A DNA stretch of 22,595 bases from a virus, in IMG/VR virus record IMGVR_UViG_3300006735_000289, positions 1-22,595 of that record. One strand, 5' to 3'. Shown here in pieces: positions 424-19,938 of the stretch (the stretch's first letter is position 1; every line of letters begins with the position of its first letter). A model generated the notes under the pieces. The model made no database searches, had not been told where the DNA came from, and saw only the letters and a program-made list of their open reading frames with translations. Made by a program: the position numbers and the translations under genes.

Positions 424-433
424 GTGCCTATTT

Positions 434-2567: not shown

Positions 2568-3033
2568 AGAAAAAATGATTCTTATTGCAAATAAACACAA
2601 TACCTGGATAGATATTGTTAAAACATTTGGCTGCAATAAAAGAACAGCAGAAGACATTACACAAGAAATGTATATCAAAATACAACTAAAGCTAGAAAAA
2701 GGCTTAGATATAATGTATAAAGATGAAATCAACTACTACTACATATTTAAAACACTAAGAACACTATTTCTAGACCTCAAAAGAAAAGGTAAAAATATAT
2801 CAATGATTCCTTTAGACAATGTTCATCTAATTAATAATGATGTAAATTATGATGAAAGCTATGAAAAGGTAAAACAAGCATTAAATGAAATGTGGTGGTA
2901 TGATAGAAAAGTATTTGAAATAATAAATAATGGTGAAAGTATTGCAGAATTTTCTAGAAAATCTTATATTCAGTATTACTCACTTTATAACACATACAGA
3001 AAAGTTAAAGACAAACTCAAAAAATTATTATGA
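2560..3033 (+). CDS. Sigma-70-like transcription factor
   Basis: 157 residues with the two-domain layout of a minimal sigma factor. Residues 10-80 resemble sigma region 2 (CNKRTAEDITQEMYIKI, then FKTLRTLFLDLKRKGK). Residues 103-155 resemble region 4 (YDRKVFEIINNGESIAEFSRKS, then a basic helix ending KVKDKLKKLL). Start ATG 2560 overlaps the preceding gene by 8 bases; a second ATG at 2575 is possible. It shares an ATGA overlap with the following nuclease gene. By position it is expressed before the late genes, so it is a good candidate to direct host RNA polymerase to the late motif CGTTATATA. That link is inference; similarity to sigma is clear in pattern but divergent. Confidence 0.68.
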   Translation: MVKEKMILIANKHNTWIDIVKTFGCNKRTAEDITQEMYIKIQLKLEKGLDIMYKDEINYYYIFKTLRTLFLDLKRKGKNISMIPLDNVHLINNDVNYDESYEKVKQALNEMWWYDRKVFEIINNGESIAEFSRKSYIQYYSLYNTYRKVKDKLKKLL

Positions 3034-4338: not shown

Positions 4339-4364
4339 AAGTTATTAAATTTTGTTTATAACTC
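4339..4364 (+). promoter_or_regulatory. Candidate operator overlapping the -33 element (copy 1)
   Basis: AAGTTATTAAATTTTGT is repeated exactly at 8145-8161, and both copies end in ATAACT, giving a dyad (here AGTTAT and ATAACT, 12 bases apart). The TTG of the predicted -33 element lies inside it, so a protein bound here would block or modulate the promoter. Confidence 0.5.
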
Positions 4365-4381
4365 AAATAGTTCTATATTTG
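4352..4381 (+). promoter_or_regulatory. Host-type promoter for the small-membrane-protein/exonuclease unit
   Basis: TTG (4352-4354), 19-base spacer, TATATTTG (4374-4381), identical in spacing and -7 sequence to the promoter at 434-463. It precedes the ATG at 4396 by 14 bases and would drive the genes up to the diphosphohydrolase. Confidence 0.72.
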
Positions 4382-6471: not shown

Positions 6472-6501
6472 TATAAAATCTATTGTTAAATTCGTTATAT
6501 A
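6472..6501 (+). promoter_or_regulatory. Phage late promoter motif, copy 1 (terminase unit)
   Basis: TATAAAATC (6472-6480), 12 bases, CGTTATATA (6493-6501). Same motif and spacing as at 8784, 15995, 17591 and 19909. Unlike the other four, the first ATG is 32 bases downstream (6534), so this transcript would carry a leader. A perfect palindrome TTGATTAATCAA lies at 6509-6520, between motif and gene. Confidence 0.72.
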
Positions 6502-6508
6502 GTAAAGA

Positions 6509-6520
6509 TTGATTAATCAA
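6509..6520. promoter_or_regulatory. 12-bp palindrome just downstream of late promoter copy 1
   Basis: TTGATTAATCAA is a perfect 12-base palindrome, 8 bases after the CGTTATATA box and 13 before the ATG, in the expected position for a repressor or activator site. It is absent from the other four late-promoter copies. Confidence 0.35.
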
Positions 6521-6533
6521 TAAAATATCAATT

Positions 6534-6668
6534 ATGGAAATCAAGAATGGCAACAGCCAATTAAATGAAACTAGAAATTTGTACAATCATAAAGTGTCCA
6601 GGCTTAATATCTTAGGTCATAGCAAGAAGATACAATGGGATGGTCGCAGAAGGTTCAGAACAATATAA
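6534..6668 (+). CDS. Small basic hypothetical protein (44 aa) preceding terminase
   Basis: First ATG after the late promoter; TAA at 6666-6668, two bases before the proposed terS start. The C-terminal half is basic and aromatic (RLNILGHSKKIQWDGRRRFRTI), suggesting nucleic-acid binding. No family recognised. Its presence makes the ATG at 6635, which lies inside it, a less likely terS start. Confidence 0.5.
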   Translation: MEIKNGNSQLNETRNLYNHKVSRLNILGHSKKIQWDGRRRFRTI

Positions 6669-6670
6669 TT

Positions 6671-6937
6671 ATGGATAAAAGAAAAAACAATGGTGGCTCA
6701 AGACAAGGTTCAGGAAGGCCAAGAAAAGCTGATGAAGTTAGGCTAATAGAAAAGATGGATAATCTAATTGATAATGATGAAGTAATTAAAACACTAGGAC
6801 AGCAAGTCTTAAAAGGTGATTCTAGGGCAATGTCATTATACTTTGGTTATAGATATGGTAAACCTAAAGAATCAGTAGATATAAATTCTTCTGAAGGCTT
6901 TAATATAAACTTCAAAGACCTGATTAAATTTAAGTGA
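6671..6937 (+). CDS. terS: Terminase small subunit-like protein
   Basis: 88 residues from ATG 6671, chosen because it follows the upstream stop by two bases; an in-frame ATG at 6635 would overlap that gene. The N-terminus has the basic, Gly-rich NNGGSRQGSGRPRKADE motif common to phage small terminases and related packaging proteins. Helices follow, including DEVIKTLGQQVLKGDSRAM and YFGYRYGKPKESVDI. TerS recognises the packaging site on phage DNA and stimulates the motor. The gene overlaps terL by 4 bases (GTGA). The call rests mainly on position and the N-terminal motif; overall it is short for a TerS. Confidence 0.68.
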   Translation: MDKRKNNGGSRQGSGRPRKADEVRLIEKMDNLIDNDEVIKTLGQQVLKGDSRAMSLYFGYRYGKPKESVDINSSEGFNINFKDLIKFK

Positions 6938-8142
6938 TAGATATTAATAAAAAGTATGCACCCATACAACAATCACCTTCTAGATATTTTATTGTAACTG
7001 GTGGTCGAGGTTCTGGGAAGTCTTTTTCAATTAATCTACAATTAGTGCTGCTAACCTATGAAGCAGGACACACAATCCTATTTACCAGGTTTACATTAGC
7101 ATCTGCATATATTTCCATAATACCTGAATTTATAGACAAGATAGAAACCTTAAACATTCAAGACCATTTCCATATTACAAAAGATGAAATCATAAATAAA
7201 CTATCAGGCAGTAAGATATTGTTTAAAGGCATTAAAACATCATCAGGAGATCAAACAGCAAACCTGAAGTCTTTAACTAATGTTAGCACTTGGGTTATGG
7301 ATGAAGCAGAAGAACTAGTGGATGAAAGTATATTTGACAAGATAGATTTGTCTGTTAGAAACCTTAAAAAACAAAACAGAGTAATACTGATATTGAATCC
7401 TGTTACAAAAGAACATTGGATATATTCCAGGTTCTTTGAAGATAAAGGTGTGATGGATGGTAGCAACACAACAAAAGACAACACAACATATATACACACA
7501 ACATATCTAGACAATCTAGAAAACTTATCTAAATCATATTTAACTCAAATAGAGAATATCAAGAAAAGAAGACCAGAAAAATATAGACATCAAATGCTTG
7601 GTGGATGGTTAGCTAAAGCTGAGGGTGTGATATTTACTAATTGGAAGATAGGAGAATTTAAACAAGTAGGTGTTTCAGTATTTGGTCAAGATTATGGATT
7701 TGCATCAGACAGTTCAACATTGATAGAAACTAACATAGACACAACTAATAAAATAATCTATCTAAAGGAATGTTTTTATCTGCCTAAACTAACTACAACA
7801 CAGATTGCACAACTAAACCTAAAACACGCAAAGACTAATTTAATAGTGGGTGATTCTGCTGAACCTAGATTGATAGCTGAGGTTAAGGCAAAAGGATGTA
7901 ATCTAATAAAATCAATAAAAGGTCAAGGGTCAATTACCTATGGTATTTCACTACTACAAGACTATGATTTAATTATAGAACCAAACAGCATAAATCTTAT
8001 TAAAGAACTAAACAACTATTGTTGGCTTGAACGTAAATCAAACACACCAATAGATAAATGGAATCATTGCATAGATGCTATAAGGTATGCAGTAAGCTAT
8101 CAACTTCAGAACCCAAATAGAGGTACATATTATATTTCATAA
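6934..8142 (+). CDS. terL: Terminase large subunit (packaging ATPase and nuclease)
   Basis: 402 residues, beginning with GTG in a GTGA overlap with terS. The ATPase has Walker A GGRGSGKS (23-30), Walker B WVMDEAEEL with D123-E124, and the coupling motif LILNP (152-156). The C-terminal RNase H-like nuclease has D253 in GQDYGFASDSS, D307 in IVGDSAEPRLI and D381 in NHCIDAIRYA, the expected acidic triad. It translocates DNA into the prohead and makes the cuts. It is an ordinary, complete TerL of the size seen in siphoviruses. The portal it must dock to is encoded about 12 kb away rather than next door. Confidence 0.95.
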   Translation: MIDINKKYAPIQQSPSRYFIVTGGRGSGKSFSINLQLVLLTYEAGHTILFTRFTLASAYISIIPEFIDKIETLNIQDHFHITKDEIINKLSGSKILFKGIKTSSGDQTANLKSLTNVSTWVMDEAEELVDESIFDKIDLSVRNLKKQNRVILILNPVTKEHWIYSRFFEDKGVMDGSNTTKDNTTYIHTTYLDNLENLSKSYLTQIENIKKRRPEKYRHQMLGGWLAKAEGVIFTNWKIGEFKQVGVSVFGQDYGFASDSSTLIETNIDTTNKIIYLKECFYLPKLTTTQIAQLNLKHAKTNLIVGDSAEPRLIAEVKAKGCNLIKSIKGQGSITYGISLLQDYDLIIEPNSINLIKELNNYCWLERKSNTPIDKWNHCIDAIRYAVSYQLQNPNRGTYYIS

Positions 8143-8144
8143 AT

Positions 8145-8170
8145 AAGTTATTAAATTTTGTGAATAACTT
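8145..8170 (+). promoter_or_regulatory. Candidate operator overlapping the -33 element (copy 2)
   Basis: AAGTTATT and AATAACTT form perfect 8-base arms separated by 10 bases. The first 17 bases are identical to 4339-4355. The TTG of the promoter at 8158 lies within the dyad. Confidence 0.52.
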
Positions 8171-8187
8171 TAATTGTGTTATTTTAG
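8158..8187 (+). promoter_or_regulatory. Host-type promoter (weaker -7) after terL
   Basis: TTG (8158-8160), 19-base spacer, TATTTTAG (8180-8187), one mismatch from TAnnTTTG. The spacing and the shared upstream dyad with 4339-4381 make it credible. The ATG at 8193 is 5 bases downstream, so this mRNA would be leaderless or nearly so. Confidence 0.5.
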
Positions 8188-8192
8188 CATTA

Positions 8193-8474
8193 ATGAATGC
8201 AATAGAAAACATACACAACTTGGAATACTTAAGTAATTCAATAGTGGTCTTAGAAAAGTTAAAAGAATGGCAAAAGGCTAGACCTGACAATAAAGACCTC
8301 AACAATTTAATTAATAAATACCTAGATATTACTTTCTATATTATTAGACTTCAGCAGGATGCTATGGCAAAAGATATGATGATTAGTAAATTTAGATTTG
8401 AAAGAAATACAGCTAGATTAGAACTTCAGGAATTAAAAGATCAATATACAAAATTAAAAGAATTAGAACTATGA
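8193..8474 (+). CDS. Hypothetical coiled-coil protein (93 aa)
   Basis: I choose ATG 8193; a longer in-frame GTG at 8160 would put the promoter inside the coding region. The product is almost entirely helical, with NSIVVLEKLKEWQKARP near the N-terminus and a C-terminal coiled coil (FRFERNTARLELQELKDQYTKLKELEL). It shares an ATGA overlap with the next gene. It has its own host-type promoter inside the late region, so it may also be expressed early. No family recognised. Confidence 0.68.
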   Translation: MNAIENIHNLEYLSNSIVVLEKLKEWQKARPDNKDLNNLINKYLDITFYIIRLQQDAMAKDMMISKFRFERNTARLELQELKDQYTKLKELEL

Positions 8475-8698
8475 AAGTAAAAGGAGAATACAATGTAGAA
8501 GAAGCTAACTATAATTTAAATATTTCTTATGAATATTATTGGGATGATGGCAATTATTTTAACCCACCTGAAAGCGACTTAGAAATACTAGAAGTTACTT
8601 TAAACGGAATGGATATAACTGACTTTTATTGGGATTGGGTTGATGATGCAATACATTCGCAAGTATGGGATTATGCACAAGAAAATAGAAATGAATAA
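8471..8698 (+). CDS. Conserved small acidic phage protein (75 aa)
   Basis: ATGA overlap with the upstream coiled-coil gene. The sequence is beta-rich and acidic with many aromatics: NLNISYEYYWDDGNYFNPPESDLEILEVTLNGMDITDFYWDW. The 'PPES-LEI-EV-LNG-DITDF' pattern resembles a small family found in many phages and plasmids, without assigned function. It is followed by a structured RNA region and a terminator, so it ends its unit. Confidence 0.68.
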   Translation: MKVKGEYNVEEANYNLNISYEYYWDDGNYFNPPESDLEILEVTLNGMDITDFYWDWVDDAIHSQVWDYAQENRNE

Positions 8699-8699
8699 G

Positions 8700-8734
8700 A
8701 TGTTGTAATAATAACTTGGGAAAAGTTACAACAT
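8700..8734 (+). repeat. Compound inverted repeat upstream of terminator
   Basis: ATGTTGTAA (8700-8708) and TTACAACAT (8726-8734) are perfect 9-base arms. In RNA, AACTT-GGGAA-AAGTT can stack on ATGTTGT/ACAACAT to give a 12-bp helix with a six-base bulge. It lies directly between a stop codon and a terminator hairpin. Confidence 0.5.
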
Positions 8735-8738
8735 TGAT

Positions 8739-8768
8739 AGGGTGGTCAGAAATGGCTGCCCTTTTTTT
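8739..8768 (+). terminator. Strong rho-independent terminator with GAAA tetraloop
   Basis: AGGGTGGTCA pairs with TGGCTGCCCT over 10 positions (three G-U pairs) closed by a GAAA tetraloop, followed by Ts to 8768. It separates the small-gene unit from the late promoter at 8784. Confidence 0.85.
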
Positions 8769-8783
8769 ATTATCTTAGTATAT

Positions 8784-8813
8784 TATAAAATCTTTAATTA
8801 AATCCGTTATATA
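8784..8813 (+). promoter_or_regulatory. Phage late promoter motif, copy 2 (tail unit)
   Basis: TATAAAATC (8784-8792), 12 bases, CGTTATATA (8805-8813), then three bases to the ATG at 8817. It directly follows a terminator, as a promoter should. It drives the tail gene unit. Confidence 0.75.
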
Positions 8814-8816
8814 TAT

Positions 8817-9467
8817 ATGAAAGTTGAATTAACTATTCCTAACAGTCTGTCAGAAATATCTTTAAAACAGTATCAGAAGTTTTTAAAAATACAGAAAAAC
8901 AATACTGATGCTTATTTCTTACAATGTAAGATGATTGAAATCTTCTGCAATCTAGATGCTAAGTCAGTTAGACTATTAAAGCTGTCTGATGCTGATAGAA
9001 TAGTACACATTTTAAATACTATGTTTGATTCTAAGCCAGAATTAATTAGAACATTTACTATGAATAATATTGAATATGGAATTGTTCCAGATTTTGATGC
9101 TATTTCTTTAGGTGAATATATTGACTTAGATACATATATTGGTGATTGGGAAAATATGTTAATTGCTATGAATGTATTATATAGACCTGTAAAAAACAAA
9201 ATGGGAGATAAATATATCATTAAAGATTATGATGTAAATTCTAAAGAAAATTTAGATGAAATTTCTATGGACATAGTTCTGGGGTCAATTTTTTTTTTGT
9301 ATCAACTAGGGATAGATTTATCGACAGTTATGGTGAACTATTTGGAGAATCAGGAAATAGACAGCTCGATGCATCAACAAATTTTGGAAGAAAGTGGGGT
9401 TGGTATCAATCAATTTACTCACTCGCTAAAGGAGATATTACGAGATTTGAAAGTATTACCAAATTAA
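8817..9467 (+). CDS. Tail assembly chaperone, short form (gpG-like)
   Basis: 216 residues in the zero frame, with start ATG 3 bases after the late promoter box. MKVELTIPNSLSEISLKQYQKFLKI and SLGEYIDLDTYIGDWENMLIAMNVLYRP are features I recall from a conserved flavobacterial phage tail-region protein. Position at the head of the tail module and the slippery T-run at 9289-9298 point to a gpG/gpGT-type tail chaperone that would hold the tape measure before tube assembly. The zero frame continues 56 codons past the T-run (to VLPN), overlapping the -1 frame extension. Chaperone role is inferred from architecture, not from similarity to lambda gpG. Confidence 0.72.
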   Translation: MKVELTIPNSLSEISLKQYQKFLKIQKNNTDAYFLQCKMIEIFCNLDAKSVRLLKLSDADRIVHILNTMFDSKPELIRTFTMNNIEYGIVPDFDAISLGEYIDLDTYIGDWENMLIAMNVLYRPVKNKMGDKYIIKDYDVNSKENLDEISMDIVLGSIFFLYQLGIDLSTVMVNYLENQEIDSSMHQQILEESGVGINQFTHSLKEILRDLKVLPN

Positions 9468-9553
9468 ATGTACACACTTGTTTAATGATGTTGTCATTTA
9501 TGAAAGACAAAAATGAATTAGAAGCAAAACAAATAAAAAAGAATTTTAAATGA
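8817..9553 (+). CDS. Tail assembly chaperone, -1 frameshifted long form (gpGT-like)
   Basis: A -1 shift at the T-run (9289-9298) would fuse about 161 zero-frame residues to an 84-residue extension beginning VSTRDRFIDSYGELFGESG and containing FGRKWGWYQSIYSLAKGDIT, FESITKLNVHTCLMMLS and an AKQIKKNFK end. The -1 frame is open from 9260, lacks a suitable own start after the slip site, and stops at TGA 9551-9553 in an ATGA overlap with the next gene. This fills what would otherwise be an 82-base gap. The KWGW/Y...LAKGD...ITKL pattern is that of phage tail-chaperone T-like domains. Total about 245 residues. Confidence 0.7.
9289..9299 (+). other. Slippery sequence for programmed -1 frameshift
   Basis: Ten Ts followed by G. 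In the zero frame the codons are ATT TTT TTT TTG, so both T TTT TTT and T TTT TTG heptamers are in canonical -1 phase. Polymerase slippage on T10 is an alternative mechanism with the same product. Confidence 0.7.
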
Positions 9554-10020
9554 GCCAACAAGGAATAAGGGGTTTTTATCAATTAACAGAAACTATAAAA
9601 GAACAGTTGCTAGAAGATAAAAATATCAATACAGTAACTACAGGAGATATTACAGATGTTAATTTAAACAAGCAAGACATATTCCCTATGGGTCATATTA
9701 TTGTAAATAGTGTAGTAGATCAGGAACAAGTATTAAGATTCAATATTACAGTATTAGCAATGGATATTGTTGACCAATCTAAAGAACTTACTATAGATAG
9801 GTTTAAGGGAAATGCCAATGAGCAGGATATTCTTAACACACAATTATCAGTATTAAATAAACTAATACAAAGATTAAGAATGGGTGATTTATATAGAGAT
9901 ATGTATCAGCTACAAAGTGATCCTACACTAGAGCCATTCTATGATAGATTTGAAAATCAACTAGCAGGATGGTCTGCAAATATGGAAGTGGTAATCTATA
10001 ATGACATATATATCTGCTAA
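9550..10020 (+). CDS. Tail terminator-like / tail completion protein
   Basis: 156 residues. The pattern is NTVTTGDITDVNLNKQDIFPMGHIIVNSV followed by LRFNITVLAMDIVDQS, then a helical segment and a C-terminal strand WSANMEVVIYNDI. This alternation resembles the small alpha/beta tail-terminator fold (lambda gpU class) that caps the tube. I recall close look-alikes in flavobacterial siphoviruses in the same position between the chaperone and the gp10-like gene. It starts in an ATGA overlap with the frameshifted chaperone and its stop overlaps the next ATG (TAATG). Role is inferred from position and fold pattern. Confidence 0.6.
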   Translation: MSQQGIRGFYQLTETIKEQLLEDKNINTVTTGDITDVNLNKQDIFPMGHIIVNSVVDQEQVLRFNITVLAMDIVDQSKELTIDRFKGNANEQDILNTQLSVLNKLIQRLRMGDLYRDMYQLQSDPTLEPFYDRFENQLAGWSANMEVVIYNDIYIC

Positions 10021-10580
10021 TGGAATACAACAATTTAGAAGCTGTAATGAAAAAGTATGCTAAGTATGTCATACAACAAGCTAAATCTAATTTATCTAAA
10101 GCAAAACCATATCCTAAAAACAAAGGTAATTTATATAATACATTAGACTATAAGATTGACCCAGATGACCAGGAAGCATTATTAGTAGAATTCCTAATGG
10201 AAGATTATGCTCAATTTGTAGATCAAGGTGTAAAAGGAAAAAACCCTAATGCTTTACCATCAGGTTCAAAACACTATGGTAAACAACAAGCACCTAATAG
10301 TCCTTATAAATTTGGTGCAATGAAGTCTAAAGGATTAAGGGCAGCAATAAATAAATGGACTGTTCAAAAAAGCATAAAAGGTGTCAGAGATAAAAAAGGT
10401 AGATTTCTTAAAAGAAAGACAATGCAATATTTAATAACTAGAAGTATATATTTAGCAGGTATCAAACCAACATACTTTTTTTCTAAACCATTTGAAGCAG
10501 GAATAAAAAAATATGAATTACAATTTAAAAAGGCATTTATATCAGACTTAGAAAGTCGAATGGTATATGGTGAAAAATAA
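10020..10580 (+). CDS. HK97 gp10-like neck/tail completion protein
   Basis: 186 residues. VMKKYAKYVIQQAKSNLS forms an N-terminal helix; DYAQFVDQGVKGKNP (about 62-76) matches the 'YA.FVE.G' signature of HK97 gp10-like proteins, which sit at the head-tail junction or tube end. A basic middle (INKWTVQKSIKGVRDKKGRFLKRK) and ITRSIYLAGIKPTYFFSKPFE follow. It shares TAATG with the preceding gene. The signature and position make it a tail-completion protein with moderate certainty. Confidence 0.68.
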   Translation: MEYNNLEAVMKKYAKYVIQQAKSNLSKAKPYPKNKGNLYNTLDYKIDPDDQEALLVEFLMEDYAQFVDQGVKGKNPNALPSGSKHYGKQQAPNSPYKFGAMKSKGLRAAINKWTVQKSIKGVRDKKGRFLKRKTMQYLITRSIYLAGIKPTYFFSKPFEAGIKKYELQFKKAFISDLESRMVYGEK

Positions 10581-10585
10581 ACATT

Positions 10586-11584
10586 ATGGCAAACATAGCA
10601 TTAAGAAACCCACAATATAAATTTATACAAGTATCATCAGGTGTTCAGTCTGTAGAATGTAAAATAACAATAAATACAGTTTTACGTTATACACTTGTAA
10701 AAAATGTAAGTCCAAGCACAGGATGCAATTTTGATATTTCAGAACTTGTCAGGGATTATTTAGAAATAACTTATTCTTCTACTTATGCAGCAGATACAGT
10801 ATTAATATCAACTAGTCTAAAACAATACTCAGGATTAAATGGAACAGGAAGTCAAGTAGGTTCAACTGTTAATTATACAGATGTAGGATGGGAAGCCTAT
10901 GGTTATTTTCCTGAGGGTTCTAATCCTGAAATACCTTTTACAACAGGCGCACAATTTTTAATAGCACCTAATACTACAGGTGTTGGGTCAAGATGGCAAA
11001 TCTTTGTTCCTTATGGAGTAGCAGGATATGTGCAATACATAACACAAACAGGAAGTTATTCTGTGAGTTCTTATAGCACTACAGCAACTTCTGCATCTGG
11101 TCAAGGTAACCAATGTATAATTAATAGAATTGATTGTACTAAATATGGTCAGGGTAGAAAAATTACATTTATAAACCGATATGGAGTTCAGCAAGATTTA
11201 TGGTTTTTCTTAAAAGAAGTCAGGTCATTAAATAGAACTAATGAAAAATATCAGTCTAATACAATACAATATCCTGATGATGAATATGCTCAATACGAAG
11301 TAAAAAATGCACCTAATAAATTATTCAATACACAAGGTAAACAAATGCATACTTTAAGTTCAGGTTATTATCCTGAATATACAAATCAGTTTTTTGAGCA
11401 ATTGTTATTGAGTGAGGATGTATGGCTTACAAGACCAAAAAAAGAAAATCCTGCTGCTGATGAAACTATACCTGTAACTGTAAAGACTTCTAATATGAAA
11501 TTTAAAACATCAGTCAATGATAGGTTAATTGAATACACAATAGATTTTGAAGAAGCATTTGACTTAATAAACAACATTAGATAA
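10586..11584 (+). CDS. Virion structural protein, tail-associated (332 aa)
   Basis: Beta-rich and Thr/Ser/Tyr/Gly-rich throughout, with no signal peptide or membrane helix. The segment INRIDCTKYGQGRKITFINRYGVQQDLWFF (about 180-209) and the later LSSGYYPEYTNQFFEQLLLSEDVWL recur, from memory, in a conserved structural protein of flavobacterial phages. It abuts the next large gene (TAA directly followed by ATG). The position between tail completion and a baseplate-like gene suggests a distal tail or baseplate component. No catalytic motifs are visible and the precise role is unknown. Confidence 0.6.
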   Translation: MANIALRNPQYKFIQVSSGVQSVECKITINTVLRYTLVKNVSPSTGCNFDISELVRDYLEITYSSTYAADTVLISTSLKQYSGLNGTGSQVGSTVNYTDVGWEAYGYFPEGSNPEIPFTTGAQFLIAPNTTGVGSRWQIFVPYGVAGYVQYITQTGSYSVSSYSTTATSASGQGNQCIINRIDCTKYGQGRKITFINRYGVQQDLWFFLKEVRSLNRTNEKYQSNTIQYPDDEYAQYEVKNAPNKLFNTQGKQMHTLSSGYYPEYTNQFFEQLLLSEDVWLTRPKKENPAADETIPVTVKTSNMKFKTSVNDRLIEYTIDFEEAFDLINNIR

Positions 11585-13927
11585 ATGCAAAAACTCCAAT
11601 TATATATAGGAACGCAAAGGGTTGATTTATTCAAAGATGAAACTGTATCTTTTACACAAACAATACAAAACGTAAAAGACATTAGTAAAATCTTTACCGA
11701 ATTTTCTAAAACATTTTCCTTACCTGCATCTAAAGTAAATAATAAGATATTCCAACATTATTACAATTTTGATATACAAGGTGGTTTTGATGCTAGAAAT
11801 AAAGTAGCAGGATATATTGAATTAAATACAATACCATTTAAAGAAGGATATATAAAATTAGAGGGAGTTGATTTAAAAAAAAACATACCTCATACTTATA
11901 GAATTACATTTTTTGGGAATACAATAAATTTGAAGGATGTATTAGGAGATGACCAATTAGGAGCATTACCTAGTTTATCAACATACAATCAAGCTTATTC
12001 TAAAGCAAATGTTAAAGCTAAAATGACTGCTAATTTAACTAGCACAACTAATATTTGTATTCCACTTATAACACATACTCAAAGATTATTTTATAATTCT
12101 GATTCTGCAACACACAATGACAATGGGAATTTATTTTATCATAATACTAGTGGAACAAATGGTGTTGTATGGAATCAATTAAAGTTTGCTATAAGATTAC
12201 AAGCTATTATTGATGCAATAGAATCACAATACCCATCAATAAATTTTTCTGATGATTTTTTTAATAATTCTAGTAACACTCAATTTCATAATTTATGGAT
12301 GTGGTTACACAGAAAAAAAGGTAGTGTAGAACCAACTCAACAATTAGCTTTAAATTTTGTTGCGTTAGAAGAATTGTATAAGGTTTCAGGTAATACAGGT
12401 TTTACTGCTTCTATATTTGGTATATTAGAAATAATAGCACCAACATCCCCAACACAAATTGTACAAACTGATTTAACAGTAACACCAACAAATAATTCAA
12501 CAGTATATAATATACAGATTTTAAAAAATGGTTCTATTTATGACCAAAGAACTAATGTAACAGGTTCTCAAACTTTTTTTAATACATCTGGAACAATTTT
12601 AGGTGCAGGTCAATATAGTATACAGGTTGCAACATTAGATTCTAATGGAATAACTTTTAATGCAAATAATATAGTTTGGACTATTTCTGTTGCTGTTCCT
12701 GGTCAAGGTGGTGGTGGTGGAACTGATATTTGGAAAAATGCAACTGCATTTCAAAGTAGCACGATAACCCCTTTTAATATTCCTGAACAAATACCTGAAA
12801 TGACAATAATTAGTTTCTTAACATCTTTATTTAAAATGTTTAATTTGACTGCTTATATAGATAATTCAGGCACAATAGTAGTTAAGACCTTAGATAGTTA
12901 TTATGCATCTGGTTCTGCAACCCCTATTGTGATAGATGAATATTTAGATGTAACAAAATCGAGTACAGATGTTGCTTTACCATTTAAAGAAATAGAATAT
13001 AAATATAAAGGTCTAGGAACTTTTTTAGCAAAACAATATAATCAACTTAATAATATTGGATGGGGAACATTGAAATACACATTAAATAATGCAACTTTTG
13101 ATGCACCGAATAATATTTATAAAGTAGAAATACCTTTTGAACACCTTTTATATGAAAGATTAATTAATGTTAATACTGCAGTATCAGCACCTGCTAATGA
13201 AACAACAATACAATGGGGTTATTTTGTTGATGATAATCAAGAACCTTATTATGGATTACCTTTAGTTTTTTATGCAATAGAAGTTAGTAATGGAACTGAA
13301 ATAGCATTACAAACAGGCACAGGTACAGAAGCTATGGATGATTATATTATACCATCTAATAGTTTAGAAGTAGGAACAACAAATGAAACTAATATTAATT
13401 TTACTGCTGCAATAAATGAATATGATGGCTCTGAATATTTAGGAACACTTTTTAATACTAATTATAGTACATACATAAATAATGTTTTTGATATTGGTAG
13501 AAGGCTTATTAAAGTTAATGCAATTTTACCACAAAAGATATTTCATAATTTACAGTTGAATGACTTAATACAAATCAGGCAACAGAACTATCAAATAAAT
13601 TCAATTACAACAAACCTAACAAATGGTAAAAGTCAATTAGAATTATTGAATGTTGGAACACCTTATTATAGGGTGCTACCTAGTGTATCGTATCAAGGCT
13701 CACTTGGAACTTTATATTATAATTATTCTGTAGGTGTTGCATCAAGTTTATCAGTCGGAGATACAATGTATAATAATGCAACATTAACTAGCACAGCAAG
13801 TTCTGGAACATATTTTCAAACAGGATCAACAGAAGATGATACAGTTTGTCAAGACAGTTCATATATGATGTCAATGACTTTAGATTCTAACGGAATAATA
13901 ACTAACATATTATGTGGGCAACCTTAA
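11585..13927 (+). CDS. Large tail-tip/baseplate-like virion protein with Ig-like insert (780 aa)
   Basis: The N-terminal region (1-130; RVDLFKDETVSFTQTIQNVKD, ASKVNNKIFQHYYNFDI, YRITFFGNTINLKDVLGDD) is a conserved module I associate with Bacteroidota siphoviruses. Residues about 283-372 form a beta-sandwich, Ig/Fn3-like segment (NIQILKNGSIYDQRTN, AGQYSIQVATLDSNG), followed by a five-glycine linker at 375-379. The C-terminal half is beta-rich with a repeat-like Thr/Ser/Gly tail. Size and position upstream of the tape measure suggest a tail-tip hub or baseplate protein, with the Ig-like part possibly binding cell-surface glycans. Function is inferred. Confidence 0.6.
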   Translation: MQKLQLYIGTQRVDLFKDETVSFTQTIQNVKDISKIFTEFSKTFSLPASKVNNKIFQHYYNFDIQGGFDARNKVAGYIELNTIPFKEGYIKLEGVDLKKNIPHTYRITFFGNTINLKDVLGDDQLGALPSLSTYNQAYSKANVKAKMTANLTSTTNICIPLITHTQRLFYNSDSATHNDNGNLFYHNTSGTNGVVWNQLKFAIRLQAIIDAIESQYPSINFSDDFFNNSSNTQFHNLWMWLHRKKGSVEPTQQLALNFVALEELYKVSGNTGFTASIFGILEIIAPTSPTQIVQTDLTVTPTNNSTVYNIQILKNGSIYDQRTNVTGSQTFFNTSGTILGAGQYSIQVATLDSNGITFNANNIVWTISVAVPGQGGGGGTDIWKNATAFQSSTITPFNIPEQIPEMTIISFLTSLFKMFNLTAYIDNSGTIVVKTLDSYYASGSATPIVIDEYLDVTKSSTDVALPFKEIEYKYKGLGTFLAKQYNQLNNIGWGTLKYTLNNATFDAPNNIYKVEIPFEHLLYERLINVNTAVSAPANETTIQWGYFVDDNQEPYYGLPLVFYAIEVSNGTEIALQTGTGTEAMDDYIIPSNSLEVGTTNETNINFTAAINEYDGSEYLGTLFNTNYSTYINNVFDIGRRLIKVNAILPQKIFHNLQLNDLIQIRQQNYQINSITTNLTNGKSQLELLNVGTPYYRVLPSVSYQGSLGTLYYNYSVGVASSLSVGDTMYNNATLTSTASSGTYFQTGSTEDDTVCQDSSYMMSMTLDSNGIITNILCGQP
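12707..12720 (+). repeat. Short GGT repeat encoding a polyglycine hinge
   Basis: Consecutive GGT/GTG triplets at the end of the Ig-like segment code for five glycines, marking a flexible domain boundary in the large tail protein. Confidence 0.5.
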
Positions 13928-13936
13928 AATAAAATT

Positions 13937-14083
13937 ATGATTAAAAATATATTAGACTTATTAAAAATAGTAAATGGTGAAACTGAGAATATTAGAATTG
14001 CTCAAGGTAAATATAAATTAGCAGAATCGTTTTCAGAGGGAATAAAGCAAACAAAAAATAAATTAAAATGGCAACAAAACTAG
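13937..14083 (+). CDS. Small hypothetical protein before the tape measure (48 aa)
   Basis: ATG 13937 lies 9 bases after the large tail gene; TAG at 14081-14083 overlaps the tape measure start by 16 bases. The product is helical and charged (IKNILDLLKIVNGETENIRIAQGKYKLAESFSEGIKQTKNK). The reading frame fills the gap between two solid genes. No family recognised; position suggests an accessory tail factor. Confidence 0.52.
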   Translation: MIKNILDLLKIVNGETENIRIAQGKYKLAESFSEGIKQTKNKLKWQQN

Positions 14084-15993
14084 AAGTAGAATTTCAGTTA
14101 AAATATAAAGAAGCTGTTAAAAACTTAGATGAATTCCAAAAGGAATATACTAAGTTAGAAAAACAAGTAGTCAAAGCAAATGAAGAAACTGCTAAAGCAT
14201 TACAAAAAGTAGAAAAAAGTGCTGAAGATGGTGCAAAAGGTGTGCAAAGTGTTGGTGCATCTTTAAAAAATATTGCTAAAGTTACTGGTGTTGTGTTTCT
14301 TCTACAACAAGCATTTGAATTTGTCAAAAGTGCTATACAAGAAAACCAACAAGTGATGGATGCCCTTAATGTTGTGTTTGAAACTGCACAAATTTTATTT
14401 AATCAAGTTGCTAATGTCTTTATTGATGTTTATAAAAACGTATCTAGTGCCACAGAAAACTTTGATGCATTAGGAAAAGTAGTTAAAGGTCTTGTTACTA
14501 TAGCCTTCACACCATTAAAACTAACAATTGATGGAATTAAATTAGGTTTATTGGCTGCACAATTGGCTTGGGAAGAATCATTCTTTGGTGATGGTGATCC
14601 TGAAACAATAAAAAGACTAAATGAATCAATAGATGAAACTAAAGAAAGCCTAAAAGAAACAGCAGTTGAAGCAGTAGTTGCAGGTGCAGATATTGTTACT
14701 AATTTTGGTGAAGCTGTTACTGAAGTTGGTGCAATAGGCACACAAGTAGTAGATGGATTAAAAGAAGTTAGTGTAGAAGCTGCAATAGAAACTGCAAAAA
14801 CTAATATACAATTAAAAAAATCTGCTGAAATTGCTGCTGCAGAATCTAGGGGTCTTATTGAGCAATATGACAGACAGGCTGAACAGCAAAGACAAATTAG
14901 AGATGAAGAAAGAAACAGTATTGAAGACAGAATAAATGCTAACAACGAATTAAAAAAGGTTTTAGAGTTACAAGAAAAGCAAATGTTAGCCAATGCTGAA
15001 ACAGTATTAAAAGCAGCAGAAGCACAATTTGAACTAACAGGCAAAGATGAAGATTATATAGCACTACTAGATGCTAGAAATGAAAAGCTAGGTGTTTTGG
15101 CACAAATAGAAGGATTCAGATCAGAACAAAAATCTAATGATTTAGCACTTGATAAAGAATTAATAGAATTAACTAATTCACAAATAGAAAGTGAAAGTAA
15201 ATTATCTATAGAAAGAAAAAGGTTTAATGCTGAATTAATACAAGATGAATTATTAAGATTACAAGCCTTAAAAGAAATAGACATATTAGAAGCAGAACAA
15301 GAATCTGTTAGACTTCAGGCAATAGTAGATAATGCAACAGCAGGAACACAAGCCAAAATTGATGCACAAATTGCTTTAGATGAATTTACAGAACAGTCTA
15401 GACAAACTAATTTAACTAGACAGAAAGAAATTTTAGATGCAGAAATAGCATTAGATAAACGAAAGATAGCAGACAAAAAAGCTGTAGTAGATGCTATATC
15501 ACAATTTGCAGATGCAGAATCTGGGATAGGTCAAGCCTTATTAATAGTGAAACAAGGACTTGCATTAAAGGAAACTATAATGGATTTAAAACGTATCACA
15601 TTTAAAGGAACAGAAGCAATAGGTTCAGCAGCAGTTTCAACAACACAAAACGTAGCTGAAAGTTCTAAGATTGGTTTTCCACAAAACATTATTACTATTG
15701 CTAGTGCTATTGCACAGGGTGTTGGAATTATGCGTTCTGTGAAAAAAGCAGTTTCTAAAACTAAAGCTAAAGCAGGTGCAGCATCAGCATCTGTTCCTAG
15801 TATTCCAACTCCATCAACACCTGCATCATTACCACCTGCATTTAATATAGTTGGAGCAAGTGGCACAAATCAATTAGCAGAAGCAATAGGTGGACAGACA
15901 CAAGAACCAGTACAAGCATTTGTTGTTGCTAGTGAGGTAACCTCAGCACAAGCACTAGAAAGAAACACAATAGAAGGTGCAACAATAGGATAA
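14068..15993 (+). CDS. Tail tape measure protein
   Basis: 641 residues, overwhelmingly helical. Residues 10-60 are a coiled coil (YKEAVKNLDEFQKEYTKLEKQ). Hydrophobic helices at about 70-90 and 130-165 (VVKGLVTIAFTPLKLTIDGIKLGLLAAQLAW) are typical of tape measure proteins. Residues 240-475 are a long Glu/Gln/Lys-rich coiled coil. The C-terminus is Ala/Pro/Ser/Thr-rich (SVPSIPTPSTPASLPP). At about 1.5 Angstrom per residue it predicts a tail near 95 nm, implying a siphovirus. It is the last gene before late promoter copy 3. Its chaperone lies four large genes upstream, an uncommon separation. Confidence 0.85.
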   Translation: MATKLEVEFQLKYKEAVKNLDEFQKEYTKLEKQVVKANEETAKALQKVEKSAEDGAKGVQSVGASLKNIAKVTGVVFLLQQAFEFVKSAIQENQQVMDALNVVFETAQILFNQVANVFIDVYKNVSSATENFDALGKVVKGLVTIAFTPLKLTIDGIKLGLLAAQLAWEESFFGDGDPETIKRLNESIDETKESLKETAVEAVVAGADIVTNFGEAVTEVGAIGTQVVDGLKEVSVEAAIETAKTNIQLKKSAEIAAAESRGLIEQYDRQAEQQRQIRDEERNSIEDRINANNELKKVLELQEKQMLANAETVLKAAEAQFELTGKDEDYIALLDARNEKLGVLAQIEGFRSEQKSNDLALDKELIELTNSQIESESKLSIERKRFNAELIQDELLRLQALKEIDILEAEQESVRLQAIVDNATAGTQAKIDAQIALDEFTEQSRQTNLTRQKEILDAEIALDKRKIADKKAVVDAISQFADAESGIGQALLIVKQGLALKETIMDLKRITFKGTEAIGSAAVSTTQNVAESSKIGFPQNIITIASAIAQGVGIMRSVKKAVSKTKAKAGAASASVPSIPTPSTPASLPPAFNIVGASGTNQLAEAIGGQTQEPVQAFVVASEVTSAQALERNTIEGATIG

Positions 15994-15994
15994 A

Positions 15995-16024
15995 TACAAA
16001 ACTTAATTTTAAATACGTTATATA
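15995..16024 (+). promoter_or_regulatory. Phage late promoter motif, copy 3 (protease unit)
   Basis: TACAAAACT (15995-16003), 12 bases, CGTTATATA (16016-16024), then three bases to ATG 16028. It begins just after the tape measure stop codon and would start the head-gene unit. Confidence 0.75.
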
Positions 16025-16027
16025 ATT

Positions 16028-16966
16028 ATGAAAATAGTAGAATTAATACTAGATGAAGAACAAGAAGAAAGTGGGATTGATGCAATATCAATTGTAGAAA
16101 GTCCTGCTATAGAATCTGATTTTGTTGCTTTAAACAACCAGGAAATAAAACTTGCAGAGTTAGACAAAGAAAAAAAAATATTATTAGGTGCTTTATTGAT
16201 ACCTAATAAACCTATTTATAGAAATGGGGAAGAAGGTGATTATTATATCTTCTTTTCTAAAGAAACTATAGTTAAGGCATCACAGATGTACTTAAAAAAT
16301 GGCTATCAAAATAATTCAACACTAGAACACAAAGACACATTAAAAGGTCTTACACTAGTTGAATCTTGGATAGTTGAAGATGAAGTAAATGACAAATCCA
16401 GAAAATATGGTTTAGATGTACCAGTAGGAACTTGGATGGGAGCAGTAAAAGTTAATAACGATGAAATATGGAACGAGTATGTTAAATCAGGTAAAGTTAA
16501 AGGTTTTTCTATTGAAGGCTATTTTGCTGATAAAATGGAACGACCTAAAGAACAGATCAAAGAAGATATGTCAGAAGAAAAATTAGCAGAACAATTACTT
16601 AATAAAATAGAAAGTATTGTTAAAGGTGAAAAAGTAGAATTAGGAATTGCAGATGATTTAAAGAAAAGAAGTGGTGAATTATTAAAGTCAGTATCAAAAG
16701 CTGATAAATCTTGGAAAAATTATCAAGACTATCTAACAGGTGCAGATAAACCTTTTTCTTCAATGATAGATGCTTATAGCGACTTAGATGGTTCTGTTCA
16801 GTTTGCAGAAGGTATTGCAAAAAGATTTATAAAAGCAGGTCAAGAACTTGGATTAGATTTAAAAAACAATAAAGATTATCAAAATATAGAAGCTAATTTA
16901 AAAACATCTAAGGATGTATTAAATACAATAAATAGTTTCAAAGACCCTTCAACATTCCAAAAATAA
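16028..16966 (+). CDS. XkdF-like prohead protease with helical C-terminal extension
   Basis: 312 residues. The N-terminus has ISIVESPAIESDFVAL (20-35), the XkdF hallmark. The protease-like core runs about 50-166: LLGALLIPNKPIYR, GDYYIFFSKETI, NSTLEHKDTLKGLTLVESWIVED with H101, and VKGFSIEGYF with S161. H101 and S161 are likely catalytic by analogy with prohead proteases (PF14550/S78-like). Residues 170-312 are an added Lys/Glu-rich helical region containing KVELGIADD (202-210). It matures the capsid by cleaving scaffold and core. No long leader separates promoter and ATG. Confidence 0.8.
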   Translation: MKIVELILDEEQEESGIDAISIVESPAIESDFVALNNQEIKLAELDKEKKILLGALLIPNKPIYRNGEEGDYYIFFSKETIVKASQMYLKNGYQNNSTLEHKDTLKGLTLVESWIVEDEVNDKSRKYGLDVPVGTWMGAVKVNNDEIWNEYVKSGKVKGFSIEGYFADKMERPKEQIKEDMSEEKLAEQLLNKIESIVKGEKVELGIADDLKKRSGELLKSVSKADKSWKNYQDYLTGADKPFSSMIDAYSDLDGSVQFAEGIAKRFIKAGQELGLDLKNNKDYQNIEANLKTSKDVLNTINSFKDPSTFQK

Positions 16967-16983
16967 AATAAATTAATATAAAA

Positions 16984-17409
16984 ATGAAAACACCAAAAGA
17001 ATTAGATAAAATCTATAATAGATTGCCTAAAGACAAAACTGAATTAGGTAATCATAAAGTTGAATTAGGAATAGTTGATGATATTGCTCAAGCCATATCT
17101 AATTTAGAAAATCAATTTAAACAGCTTAGTGATGCTGAAAGAAAACAATTTAATGCTGTCGTAGAAATAAGAAAAGCAATAAGTGAAGCAAAAAAAATAG
17201 ATGATAAAAGTAAAAGTTTAGCAAATAAATCAGAAAGTATTGCAGATAAATCTGCTAAATTAATAACTAAAGCAAGACAAGCAGCAAAAGATTTAGGTGT
17301 AAAAGATTCTGATATTAAAGGTTTGAAACAATTATTTAATACAATAGATAATATGGATCAAAAAATAGAAGAAATAAGAAATTTTCAATTTACTTATGAA
17401 AAATTATAA
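16984..17409 (+). CDS. Coiled-coil head-region protein sharing the KVELGI-DD motif
   Basis: 141 residues, predicted all-helical (ISNLENQFKQLSDAERKQFNAVVEIRKAISEAKK; SLANKSESIADKSAKLITKARQAAKDLGV). Residues 24-33 (HKVELGIVDD) closely match KVELGIADD in the C-terminal part of the preceding protease. Head-region position between protease and scaffold suggests a minor capsid, core or second scaffold-like protein. Start ATG is 17 bases after the protease stop with an A-rich leader. No named family recognised. Confidence 0.66.
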   Translation: MKTPKELDKIYNRLPKDKTELGNHKVELGIVDDIAQAISNLENQFKQLSDAERKQFNAVVEIRKAISEAKKIDDKSKSLANKSESIADKSAKLITKARQAAKDLGVKDSDIKGLKQLFNTIDNMDQKIEEIRNFQFTYEKL

Positions 17410-17425
17410 AAAATACATATAGTAA

Positions 17426-17587
17426 ATGCGTAATACAAGAAACAAAAAACCTTTTATACCTAGCAGAACAAGTCCTACTGGTAGTTCTAGAGCCTGTTTA
17501 TGTTGGGATTCCAACACATATTCAATAGAATGTTGTGATGGTTCAATACACGCACAAGGTATTGGTGTTATTACTAGAATTACTTAA
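17426..17587 (+). CDS. Small Cys-rich protein (53 aa) of the head region
   Basis: ATG 17426, TAA 17585-17587. After a basic, Pro/Ser/Thr-rich start, the C-terminal half is CLCWDSNTYSIECCDGSIHAQGIGVI with C-x-C and C-C pairs. I recall a small family with the pattern 'CLC.D.TYS.ECCDG...QGIG' in flavobacterial phage structural regions, role unknown. Four Cys in 16 residues suggest metal binding or disulfide structure. The conserved late motif follows it directly. Confidence 0.62.
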   Translation: MRNTRNKKPFIPSRTSPTGSSRACLCWDSNTYSIECCDGSIHAQGIGVITRIT

Positions 17588-17590
17588 AAA

Positions 17591-17620
17591 TGCAAAATTA
17601 AATCAAATAATCGTTATATA
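17591..17620 (+). promoter_or_regulatory. Phage late promoter motif, copy 4 (scaffold-capsid unit)
   Basis: TGCAAAATT (17591-17599), 12 bases, CGTTATATA (17612-17620), then six bases to ATG 17627. The first half differs at the second base (G for A) from the other copies. It gives the scaffold and major capsid genes their own start, consistent with high demand. Confidence 0.72.
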
Positions 17621-17626
17621 AATAAT

Positions 17627-18256
17627 ATGAAATCAACTGAAATGTTAAATCAAATTAAAACACTTCTAAACATCGAGGTAAAACTTGAAGAAATGAAGTT
17701 AGAAAATGGCACTATCGTAAGTGCAGAATCATTTGAAAAAGGTAAAGAAATCTTTATAGTAACAGATGATGAAAAAGTAGCAATGCCAGTAGGTGAATAT
17801 ATCCTAGAAGATGGCAGATTAGTAGTTGTTGAAGAAGAAGGAATTATTGCAGATGTTAGAGAAGTATCTGATGAAGTTCCACAGAAAGAAGGAGAAGATG
17901 GAGAAGAAATTACTTCAGATTTAAAAGAAGATGACTATGAAGAAGAAAAAGATGAAAAGAAAATGGCTGATGTAGAAGATTGGGAAGGAATGGAAAAAAG
18001 AATCCAAAACCTAGAAGATGCTATTTCTGATCTTAAATCTAAACTTAGTGAAAAAGAAGAAATGGGTGAAGAATCTAAAGGATTAAAATCTCGTACAGTA
18101 AAAGAAGAATTTAGCAAAGAAGAATTATCTGAAGCTGCAGTAAAGCCTATTAAACACAATCCTGAATCAGGAAATGAAAAAATAAATAAAGTAGAATTTG
18201 CAAAAGGCAAGTTTAACACGACACTAGATAGAGTATTAAATAAATTAAATAAATAA
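17627..18256 (+). CDS. Head scaffolding protein (predicted)
   Basis: 209 residues immediately upstream of the major capsid gene. Residues 20-80 form a beta-rich domain (LENGTIVSAESFEKGKEIFIVTDDEKVAMPVGEYILEDGRLVVVEEE). Residues 85-115 are very acidic; 117-150 form a coiled coil (MEKRIQNLEDAISDLKSKLSEKEE). The end is basic (KGKFNTTLDRVLNKLNK), as in scaffolds whose C-terminus binds capsid protein. Position, charge pattern and coiled coil support a scaffold that is removed by the protease. Family membership is from general resemblance, and an internal acidic capsid protein is the main alternative. Confidence 0.65.
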   Translation: MKSTEMLNQIKTLLNIEVKLEEMKLENGTIVSAESFEKGKEIFIVTDDEKVAMPVGEYILEDGRLVVVEEEGIIADVREVSDEVPQKEGEDGEEITSDLKEDDYEEEKDEKKMADVEDWEGMEKRIQNLEDAISDLKSKLSEKEEMGEESKGLKSRTVKEEFSKEELSEAAVKPIKHNPESGNEKINKVEFAKGKFNTTLDRVLNKLNK

Positions 18257-18264
18257 TAAAAAAA

Positions 18265-19239
18265 ATGAGTAATCTAAAAAATGTAAATTTAGCAACTACT
18301 GTAAATATCACTAGTACTTATGCAGGTGAATTCGCAGGAGAATATATTGCTGCAGCACTTCTTTCAGCATCTACAATTGATGATGGGGGATTAACAGTAA
18401 AAGCGAATATCGCTTACAAAGAAGTAATTAAAAAATTAGCAACAGGTTCTTTAGTAACTGCAGCAGGATGTGATTTTGTACCAAATTCATCTGTAACACT
18501 TACAGAAAGAATTATTGAGCCAAAAGAATTACAAGTAAACCTACAATTATGTAAGTATGACTTCGTAAACGATTGGGAAGCACAACAAATGGGATATGGT
18601 TTAGGTCAATCTTTACCCCCTAAATTCTCTGACTTTATGATTGCTCACGTGGCAGCAGAAGTAGCACAAAATACAGAATTATGTATATGGCAAGGAGATA
18701 CAACTGCAAGTTCTAACAATTCATTTGATGGATTTGAAAAACTAATTTTAGCAGCAGCAGCACAAATTCCTACAGGTCAAAAAATTACAAAAGTAAGTGG
18801 TGGAATTACTGCAGCAAACGTAATCGCAGAATTATCTAAAGTAGTAGATGCAATACCATCATCATTATATGGTAAAGAAGACCTATTTATTTACATTCCA
18901 TCTAAAACAGCTAAGGCTTATGTTCAAGCATTAGGTGGGTTTGCAGCTAGTGGATTAGGAGCAAATGGTGTTAATAACCAAGGAACACAATGGTGGAACA
19001 ATGGTTCGCTAAGTGTAAATGGTGTTAAAATATTTGTTTGTCCAGGAATGAGCAACGATAAAATGTATGCAGCACAAAGAAGTAACTTATACTTCGGAAC
19101 TGGAATCCTTAACGATTCAAATGTTGTAAAGGTTTTAGATATGGCTGACTTAGATGCTTCTAACAATGTTAGAATGGTAATGAGATTTACCTCAGCAGTA
19201 CAGTTTGGAATTGCTTCTGACCTTGTACAATATAAATAA
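18265..19239 (+). CDS. Major capsid protein (HK97-fold)
   Basis: 324 residues, starting 8 bases after the scaffold stop. The N-terminus lacks a long delta domain, matching the separate scaffold. The pattern is that of HK97-like capsids of Bacteroidota phages: CKYDFVNDWEAQQMGYG, a long helix FSDFMIAHVAAEVAQNTELCIWQGD (the spine helix), FDGFEKLILAAAAQI, then DLFIYIPSKTAKAYVQAL, VNGVKIFVCPGMSNDKMYAAQRSNLYFGTGI and the closing VRMVMRFTSAVQFGIASDLVQY. Codon use includes more G and C than neighbours at several positions, typical of a highly expressed gene. A terminator follows. Confidence 0.88.
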   Translation: MSNLKNVNLATTVNITSTYAGEFAGEYIAAALLSASTIDDGGLTVKANIAYKEVIKKLATGSLVTAAGCDFVPNSSVTLTERIIEPKELQVNLQLCKYDFVNDWEAQQMGYGLGQSLPPKFSDFMIAHVAAEVAQNTELCIWQGDTTASSNNSFDGFEKLILAAAAQIPTGQKITKVSGGITAANVIAELSKVVDAIPSSLYGKEDLFIYIPSKTAKAYVQALGGFAASGLGANGVNNQGTQWWNNGSLSVNGVKIFVCPGMSNDKMYAAQRSNLYFGTGILNDSNVVKVLDMADLDASNNVRMVMRFTSAVQFGIASDLVQYK

Positions 19240-19257
19240 AAATTAATTAACTAAATT

Positions 19258-19290
19258 AAGGCAGGTAGAATAATCTGCTTGCCTTTTTTT
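19258..19290 (+). terminator. Terminator after the major capsid gene
   Basis: GGCAGGTAGA pairs with TCTGCTTGCC (two G-U pairs, extendable by two A-T pairs), ATAA loop, then a run of seven Ts. No late or host-type promoter is evident between it and the next ATG at 19311, so partial read-through is likely. Confidence 0.85.
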
Positions 19291-19310
19291 ATAAATAAAA
19301 TATAAATAAT

Positions 19311-19841
19311 ATGGCTTGTACATTAACAACAGGTAGAAAAATTCCTTGTAAATCAGCTTTTGGTGGTATAAAAACTGTTTTGTTTGCTAATTATGGGACT
19401 ATTGCATCAATTGCAGTAGATTCAACAACCAAAATAGCAACTATAACAAATGGTTCGCCAGCACCAGTATGGTTTGAATATGATGTAAAAGGAAATTCTA
19501 GTTTAGAAACTACTGTAACAAGTAGCAGAGAAAACGGAACAACATTCTACACACAAACTTTAAACTTAACATTAACTTATTTAGATGCAAAAACACAAGC
19601 AGAACTGCAACTTTTAGCAGTATCTAGACCATACGCAGTAGTCGTTGATTACTACGGCAATAGCTTCTTATGTGGTTTTGAAAACGGAATGGATTTGACA
19701 GGTGGAACTGTAGTAACAGGAGCAGCAGCAGGAGATTTATCAGGGTTTACTCTAACATTTGAAGGAATGGAAGAAACAGCACCTTATTTCTTAAATGCTA
19801 CACCAACAGCATCAACTGAACAAGTTGACCCAACAGCATAA
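19311..19841 (+). CDS. Tail tube-like major tail protein
   Basis: 176 residues. Features are an opening CxxxxGRKIPCKSAFGGIKTVLFANYG, then SSLETTVTSSRENGTTFYTQTLNLTLTYLDAKTQAELQLLAVSRPYAVVVDYYGNSFLCGFENGMDLTGGT and SGFTLTFEGMEE. The paired strands and the NGMDLTGG...GYxLTFEGxE ending closely resemble the tube protein family I recall from flavobacterial siphoviruses. It lies after the capsid terminator without its own visible promoter, so it is presumably made in lower amount than capsid by read-through. Tail tube is the best call; a head decoration protein is the alternative. Confidence 0.7.
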   Translation: MACTLTTGRKIPCKSAFGGIKTVLFANYGTIASIAVDSTTKIATITNGSPAPVWFEYDVKGNSSLETTVTSSRENGTTFYTQTLNLTLTYLDAKTQAELQLLAVSRPYAVVVDYYGNSFLCGFENGMDLTGGTVVTGAAAGDLSGFTLTFEGMEETAPYFLNATPTASTEQVDPTA

Positions 19842-19866
19842 TAATAGTTTTTTTTAATTGTAAATC

Positions 19867-19895
19867 AAGCACTCTTAATAGGGTGCTTTTTTTTT
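19867..19895 (+). terminator. Terminator after the tail-tube-like gene
   Basis: AAGCACTC pairs with GGGTGCTT (one G-U pair) around a TTAATA loop, followed by a run of Ts to 19895. Late promoter copy 5 starts 14 bases further on. Confidence 0.82.
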
Positions 19896-19908
19896 GCCTA
19901 AATGATTG

Positions 19909-19938
19909 TACAAATTCTTAGTATTATTACGTTATATA
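19909..19938 (+). promoter_or_regulatory. Phage late promoter motif, copy 5 (portal unit)
   Basis: TACAAATTC (19909-19917), 12 bases, CGTTATATA (19930-19938), then four bases to ATG 19943. It directly follows a terminator. Confidence 0.75.

Follow-up and report, generated by a model that had tools for sequence, protein, structure and literature searches.

According to our analysis, the five copies of a two-box motif that precede the late transcription units of a virulent siphovirus-like phage with a flavobacterium-type host are probably late promoters, read by a phage-encoded ECF-type sigma factor on the host core polymerase, a reading to which we assign a probability of about 0.82. The window, that is, the whole stretch of DNA analysed here, is an entire IMG/VR virus record of 22,595 b with a G+C content of 24-34% (in 1-kb steps) and with all genes of substance on the + strand. 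A sequence-only reading of it had proposed a bipartite late promoter which is not of the host type and is recognized by a different sigma factor or activator, and this proposal is supported by the strand, position and spacing of the motif, by its restriction to late genes, by the adjacent terminators and by its conservation. The different sigma factor now has a candidate, overlooked in that reading and encoded in the same window (Table 1).

Table 1. Candidate sigma gene and predicted transcription signals in the window
Feature	Position	Strand	Context	Orthologues with motif upstream	Predicted +1 and leader
Host-type early promoter (sigma-ABfr, TTTG/TAnnTTTG)	433..463	+	5' of the operon with the sigma gene		
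ECF-like sigma factor, 157 aa, predicted	2560..3033	+	Early operon; family profile, Pfam and fold evidence		
Second host-type early promoter	4351..4381	+	Position conserved in relatives		
Late promoter 1	6472..6501	+	Packaging unit: small ORF 6534-6668, TerS-like 6635-6937, TerL 6934-8142	TerS, 69/77	A6505; about 29 nt to ATG 6534
Intrinsic terminator-like hairpin and T-run	8740..8768	+	Ends 15 b before late promoter 2		
Late promoter 2	8784..8813	+	Before ORF 8817-9467, which tail-region genes follow	8817 gene, 82/88	A8817, A of ATG (leaderless)
Late promoter 3	15995..16024	+	Before head maturation protease 16028-16966	Protease, 34/34	A16028, A of ATG (leaderless)
Late promoter 4	17591..17620	+	Before scaffold-like 17627-18256 and capsid-like 18265-19239	Scaffold, 42/44	A17624 (3-nt leader)
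Intrinsic terminator-like hairpin and T-run	19867..19895	+	Ends 13 b before late promoter 5		
Late promoter 5	19909..19938	+	Before ORF 19943-20374 and portal 20371-22497	19943 gene, 66/69	A19942 (1-nt leader)

A two-box motif in front of the late genes

The motif was originally given as TRYAAAWYY-N12-CGTTATATA, and this pattern has exactly five matches in the window, all on the + strand and at the late promoter positions of Table 1, with 0.00 expected from shuffles. Allowing up to three mismatches adds two matches, both on the minus strand (1.74 expected). A position matrix trained on 159 sites of relatives, from which sequences resembling the window's own sites had been left out, places the same five sites at the top (20.5-30.6 bits), and the sixth-best match in the window, at 11.5 bits, lies within the range of the shuffles (maximum 12.9). 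A chance repeat as the origin of the motif is ruled out by the shuffles, the mismatch scan and the matrix ranking taken together. Each site lies before the first gene of a late unit, as the sequence-only reading had it, namely the packaging, 8817, protease, scaffold/capsid and 19943/portal units. A small unannotated ORF (17427-17587, start ATGCGTAATACAAG) is found just 5' of late promoter 4, and the related contig L196 has a comparable small ORF at the matching place.

The refined late motif is TAYAAA-N15-CGTTATATA-NN-T(A/G). In 252 distinct contexts from relatives, picked by CGTTATATA alone, A occupies positions -18, -17 and -16 (counted from the C of CGTT) in 98-99% of cases and is preceded by TAY, and T is found at +11, followed by A or G at +12. 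Since these contexts were chosen by the downstream half only, the fixed spacing of the two halves is no selection effect, and the constancy claimed for it from the five window sites extends to the relatives. The upstream consensus first proposed keeps its core, TAYAAA(A/T), located 15 b before CGTT, and loses its final YY, which is not conserved in the relatives.

About 300 related viral loci, most of them contig fragments, were collected, L006 to L240 by scans with the sigma-like protein, TerL and portal and L243 to L305 by further sigma scans; close contigs were thinned by sequence identity of the examined region only. Counted over the first 235 relatives, the coding strand holds 333 copies of CGTTATATA, against 11 on the opposite strand. 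When orthologous genes were inspected in loci fetched by protein similarity, not by motif, the motif was present upstream of 90-100% of the orthologues of each of the five genes listed in Table 1, as well as at 2/2 small ORFs that precede TerS in some genomes. It was found at none of the orthologues of 22 other genes (e.g., sigma 0/107, TerL 0/118, capsid 0/54, and portal 0/66), and on the opposite strand at orthologous starts the count was 0 for every gene. A simple AT-rich start context is ruled out because the motif is consistently missing from the starts of these 22 genes of the same genomes. Had the motif been as frequent within coding regions or on the minus strand, this would have spoken against a promoter; the observed outcome favours the promoter claim.

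All of the 23 contigs of 28-34 kb carry four to six sites each, with two sites in total on the unexpected strand. A longer pattern was run against the entire viral collection, and among the matches listed 109 of 114 loci encode a homologue of a window protein; of the five listed loci that do not, one is a small 2-kb piece and three represent a single repeated stretch. The long motif pattern appears to be nearly private to this phage group, and Riemerella phage RAP44, which has a related TerL, shows 0 matches to the motif pattern. Sequence comparison establishes the motif together with its orientation, spacing, conservation and placement relative to genes, and from these we infer that it acts as a promoter.

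Two of the sites had been described as directly following terminators, and this is borne out by hairpins with T-runs in front of late promoters 2 and 5. With a strict detector, the terminator before the portal unit is kept in 66/69 orthologous regions and the one before the 8817 unit was detected in 20/86, the other starts being mostly without one. Because a conserved terminator precedes it, the portal unit would need a promoter of its own, which argues against a purely translational role of the motif.

A candidate reader and its counterpart in a cultured phage

The ORF at 2560-3033 is deemed the probable reader of the five late promoters. The window protein itself scores 12.4 bits against Pfam Sigma70_r2 (cut-off 24), and its best NCBIfam match, at 2.2e-4, is likewise below the cut-offs; 15 of 28 family members match Sigma70_r2, the best at 4.6e-5. 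The family profile matches ECF SigE in the PDB at an E value of 0.0025, and in the family alignment (A1) a stretch AED(I/L)(V/T)QEMYIKI is conserved, which resembles sigma region 2. The family profile and the fold were needed since a phmmer search of the PDB with the single window sequence gave a chance match only. The AlphaFold model (pLDDT 84.5, pTM 0.48) has helices at 2-78 and 97-156, with low-confidence stretches at 80-85 and 90-93 between them, and its PDB matches span both domains. In the Foldseek comparison with the PDB, ECF sigmas, free or in complex, make up the whole of the best 15 hits, with a best E value of 2.8e-4 and a probability of 1.00. The TM-scores of about 0.4 and the pTM are modest because the relative placement of the two sigma domains is uncertain, and domain 4 in the window protein is supported mainly by the predicted structure. 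With its 157 aa, the protein has the layout of ECF sigmas, in which a linker connects sigma2 to sigma4, with no further domains, over a total of about 150-200 aa.

The sigma gene is found in 23/23 long contigs (28-34 kb), in two P12024-like contigs and in phage P12024L, an association with the motif that rests on one phage group and distant relatives, which also have other genes in common. When 50,697 phage records were searched by tblastn, the window sigma gave no match at E <= 1, the L196-type and L178-type sigmas gave nothing, and the P12024L sigma matched only P12024L/S. The family is encoded by hundreds of viral contigs, though it was not found in the bacterial and archaeal genomes scanned nor, P12024L/S aside, in GenBank phages. 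These were 84,980 genomes, searched with the sigma alignment and with TerL; because they yielded no relative, the host is placed no further than the P12024 link allows.

The Nonlabens (Persicivirga) phage P12024L has a TerL 55% identical to that of the window and has most late genes in common with it. Its gp35, annotated as "Sigma-70 region 2" only in a genome with no annotated promoters, is homologous to the window sigma (5.7e-8 with a profile built without gp35; 25% identical) and passes the Sigma70_r2 cut-off, with 25.2 versus 24 bits. Ten early window proteins were compared with P12024L, and homologues were found for just two of them, Erf and the sigma. P12024L and P12024S combine a homologous sigma and the same late genes with an equivalent late-promoter layout, in a changed form. 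CGTTATATA is absent throughout P12024L, and a shifted motif, AACAAA-N13/14-CGTTAA, is present at six sites, all forward (0.075 expected) and all 11-12 b before the annotated ATG of a late gene (gp05, gp08, gp37, gp42, gp45, and gp46); the minus strand and the replication region have none. Compared with the window, the upstream box is AACAAA, the spacer is 1-2 b shorter and the downstream box is CGTTAA. A weaker CGTTATTATA precedes gp01.

Contigs L245 and L246 carry the P12024L form of the motif and L249 a near form, and L196, with another diverged sigma, has TRCAAA-N15-(C/A)GTTATAC. In outline, sigma and motif appear to have changed together, across the few deep lineages compared. As a separate observation, the single gene gp01 of P12024L (L241 179-1228) matches two separate genes of the window, those of the protease and the scaffold, each of which has its own late promoter.

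Start points, early promoters, and rival readings

The distance from the C of CGTT to the ATG is 12 b in 119/273 sites and 13-16 b in 91, hence 12-16 b in 210, and it is mostly 33-47 b at the 55 packaging-class sites. At sites whose ATG falls at another base, T still occupies base 11 in 84% / 73% of cases and a purine base 12 in 100% / 98%. Since T at base 11 and a purine at base 12 form a usual start-site signature, we infer that +1 is the purine 12 b after the C of CGTT, which places this C at -12. Late mRNAs are predicted to be mostly leaderless or near-leaderless, because at four of the five promoters this +1 falls on, or within 3 b of, the A of the ATG. Bacteroidota are without Shine-Dalgarno leaders, and 87% of the transcripts predicted in F. 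johnsoniae carry leaders of more than 10 nt (PMC6847099); leaderless late mRNA would be unusual in such hosts, given that F. johnsoniae leaders mostly exceed this length.

On the early side, the TTG-N19-TAnnTTTG signal that had been noticed before early genes was found at 434 and 4352, both conserved in position in relatives. In non-coding DNA, read on the + strand, TTTG about 19 b before TAHHTTTG occurs only at 433 and 4351, and it is missing from the five late sites. Across 121 sigma loci, host-type sites show two peaks, one located 2-2.5 kb ahead of the sigma gene (55 forward : 3 reverse) and the other 1.5-2 kb beyond its start (42 forward : 1 reverse); the late region of these loci has no comparable forward peak of host-type promoters. 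In relatives, host-type matches also peak on the minus strand some 1-1.5 kb 5' of the sigma gene (22 loci); this peak is not present as such in the window and may correspond to conserved coding sequence or to an antisense promoter. The window further encodes a small helix-turn-helix (HTH) protein (5695-6168), present in most relatives, with a weak match to the DnaA C terminus (1.2e-4), possibly a replication or DNA-binding factor.

This arrangement fits a simple cascade, with the host sigma serving the early genes and the phage sigma the late genes. Host RNA polymerase would transcribe the early genes, that of the sigma included, from the host-type TTTG/TAnnTTTG promoters, and the phage sigma, a two-domain ECF-type protein, would then bind the host core polymerase. 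Its domain 4 would read TAYAAA and its domain 2 CGTTATATA, at the fixed 15-base spacing, and transcription would start afresh at the packaging, tail, protease, scaffold/capsid and portal units, twice just after a terminator.

Alternatively, the host polymerase with the host's own sigma could be guided by a phage activator bound at TAYAAA. T4 MotA and the lambda-type activators are precedents, and the conserved HTH protein at 5695-6168 would be at hand for such a role. We consider this unlikely: that protein has no detectable homologue in P12024L, where the corresponding motif is present and the sigma does have a homologue, and for this reason it was lowered as a candidate reader. An ECF sigma, moreover, suits both the constant spacing and a downstream box that begins with CGT, and CGTTATATA is unlike the host -7 element TAHHTTTG (PMC6847099).

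The closeness of many sites to the ATG, in hosts without Shine-Dalgarno leaders, would also agree with an element acting at the RNA level, such as a ribosome-binding or regulator site within a longer mRNA. We deem this very improbable, given that at the packaging promoter the same motif lies much farther from the ATG, that gene starts within operons never carry it and that a bipartite layout with a fixed gap is unlike a translation signal; the conserved terminator before the portal unit points the same way. More doubtful still is that the sites are operators or other DNA-binding sites, serving a repressor, packaging or replication. A repeated, conserved phage DNA motif can be the binding site of any protein, but the strict single orientation, the restriction to first genes of late units and the purine initiator at a fixed distance argue for promoters, and a dimeric repressor would not typically bind an asymmetric motif.

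Relation to known systems and implications

Phage sigmas of the ECF type are a kind already known from phiEco32, and those of phiEco32 and phage 7-11 are ECF-like; what differs here is the motif, its two-box layout, its closeness to the ATG, the sigma sequence and the host phylum. In phiEco32, gp36, named as a phage sigma (PMC5312081), likewise redirects the host polymerase to a few conserved promoters before structural genes, as does its counterpart in 7-11 (shown for phiEco32, inferred for 7-11; PMC4331800), and the early genes use host promoters, as we propose for the window phage. In the window, too, the sigma gene lies outside the late region and the motif precedes structural units and no early genes. 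The phiEco32/7-11 motif is a single block (TAATGTATA; TGTGATGTTATA) (PMC4331800), whereas that of the window has two boxes at a fixed spacing, close to the ATG, and TAYAAA-N15-CGTTATATA contains neither the core TAATGTATA nor TGATGT(TATA). The sigma sequence (no tblastn match) and the host phylum differ as well.

Bacterial ECF sigmas, such as E. coli sigmaE, M. tuberculosis SigE, SigH and SigL, and B. subtilis SigW, have the two-domain fold in common with the window protein, although its sequence stays below the curated family cut-offs. They use -35/-10-like boxes with a fixed short spacer, as in the window motif, and the ECF -10 box begins with CGT. The T4 late promoter, by contrast, is TATAAATA alone, with no -35 box; unlike these gp55-dependent promoters, those of the window have two conserved boxes, of which the downstream one is CGTTATATA. 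Sites of the Bacteroidota sigma-ABfr type (TTTG / TAHHTTTG; PMC6847099) flank the early genes of the phage, and the late motif is without both elements.

Late gene control in Bacteroidota phages has been little described. In the open-access literature, subscription papers being outside the scope of the search, we found no report of the motif or the sigma family, and CGTTATATA and CGTTAATATA as exact strings in papers led to unrelated texts only. We think it somewhat probable that an abundant uncultured marine phage group possesses an undescribed late system, combining a diverged ECF-type sigma and its own two-box promoters with leaderless late mRNAs. If true, the choice of late genes and the mode of translation would be switched together, in a phylum with normally leadered, Shine-Dalgarno-free mRNA, and the way in which such hosts translate leaderless late mRNAs would become a question of its own. 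P12024L and its Nonlabens host provide a cultured representative in which the pairing of sigma and promoter is testable. As a genome marker, the motif allows early and late genes to be told apart reliably across a large marine phage group, and sigma and promoter together would make a compact candidate pair for flavobacterial genetics.
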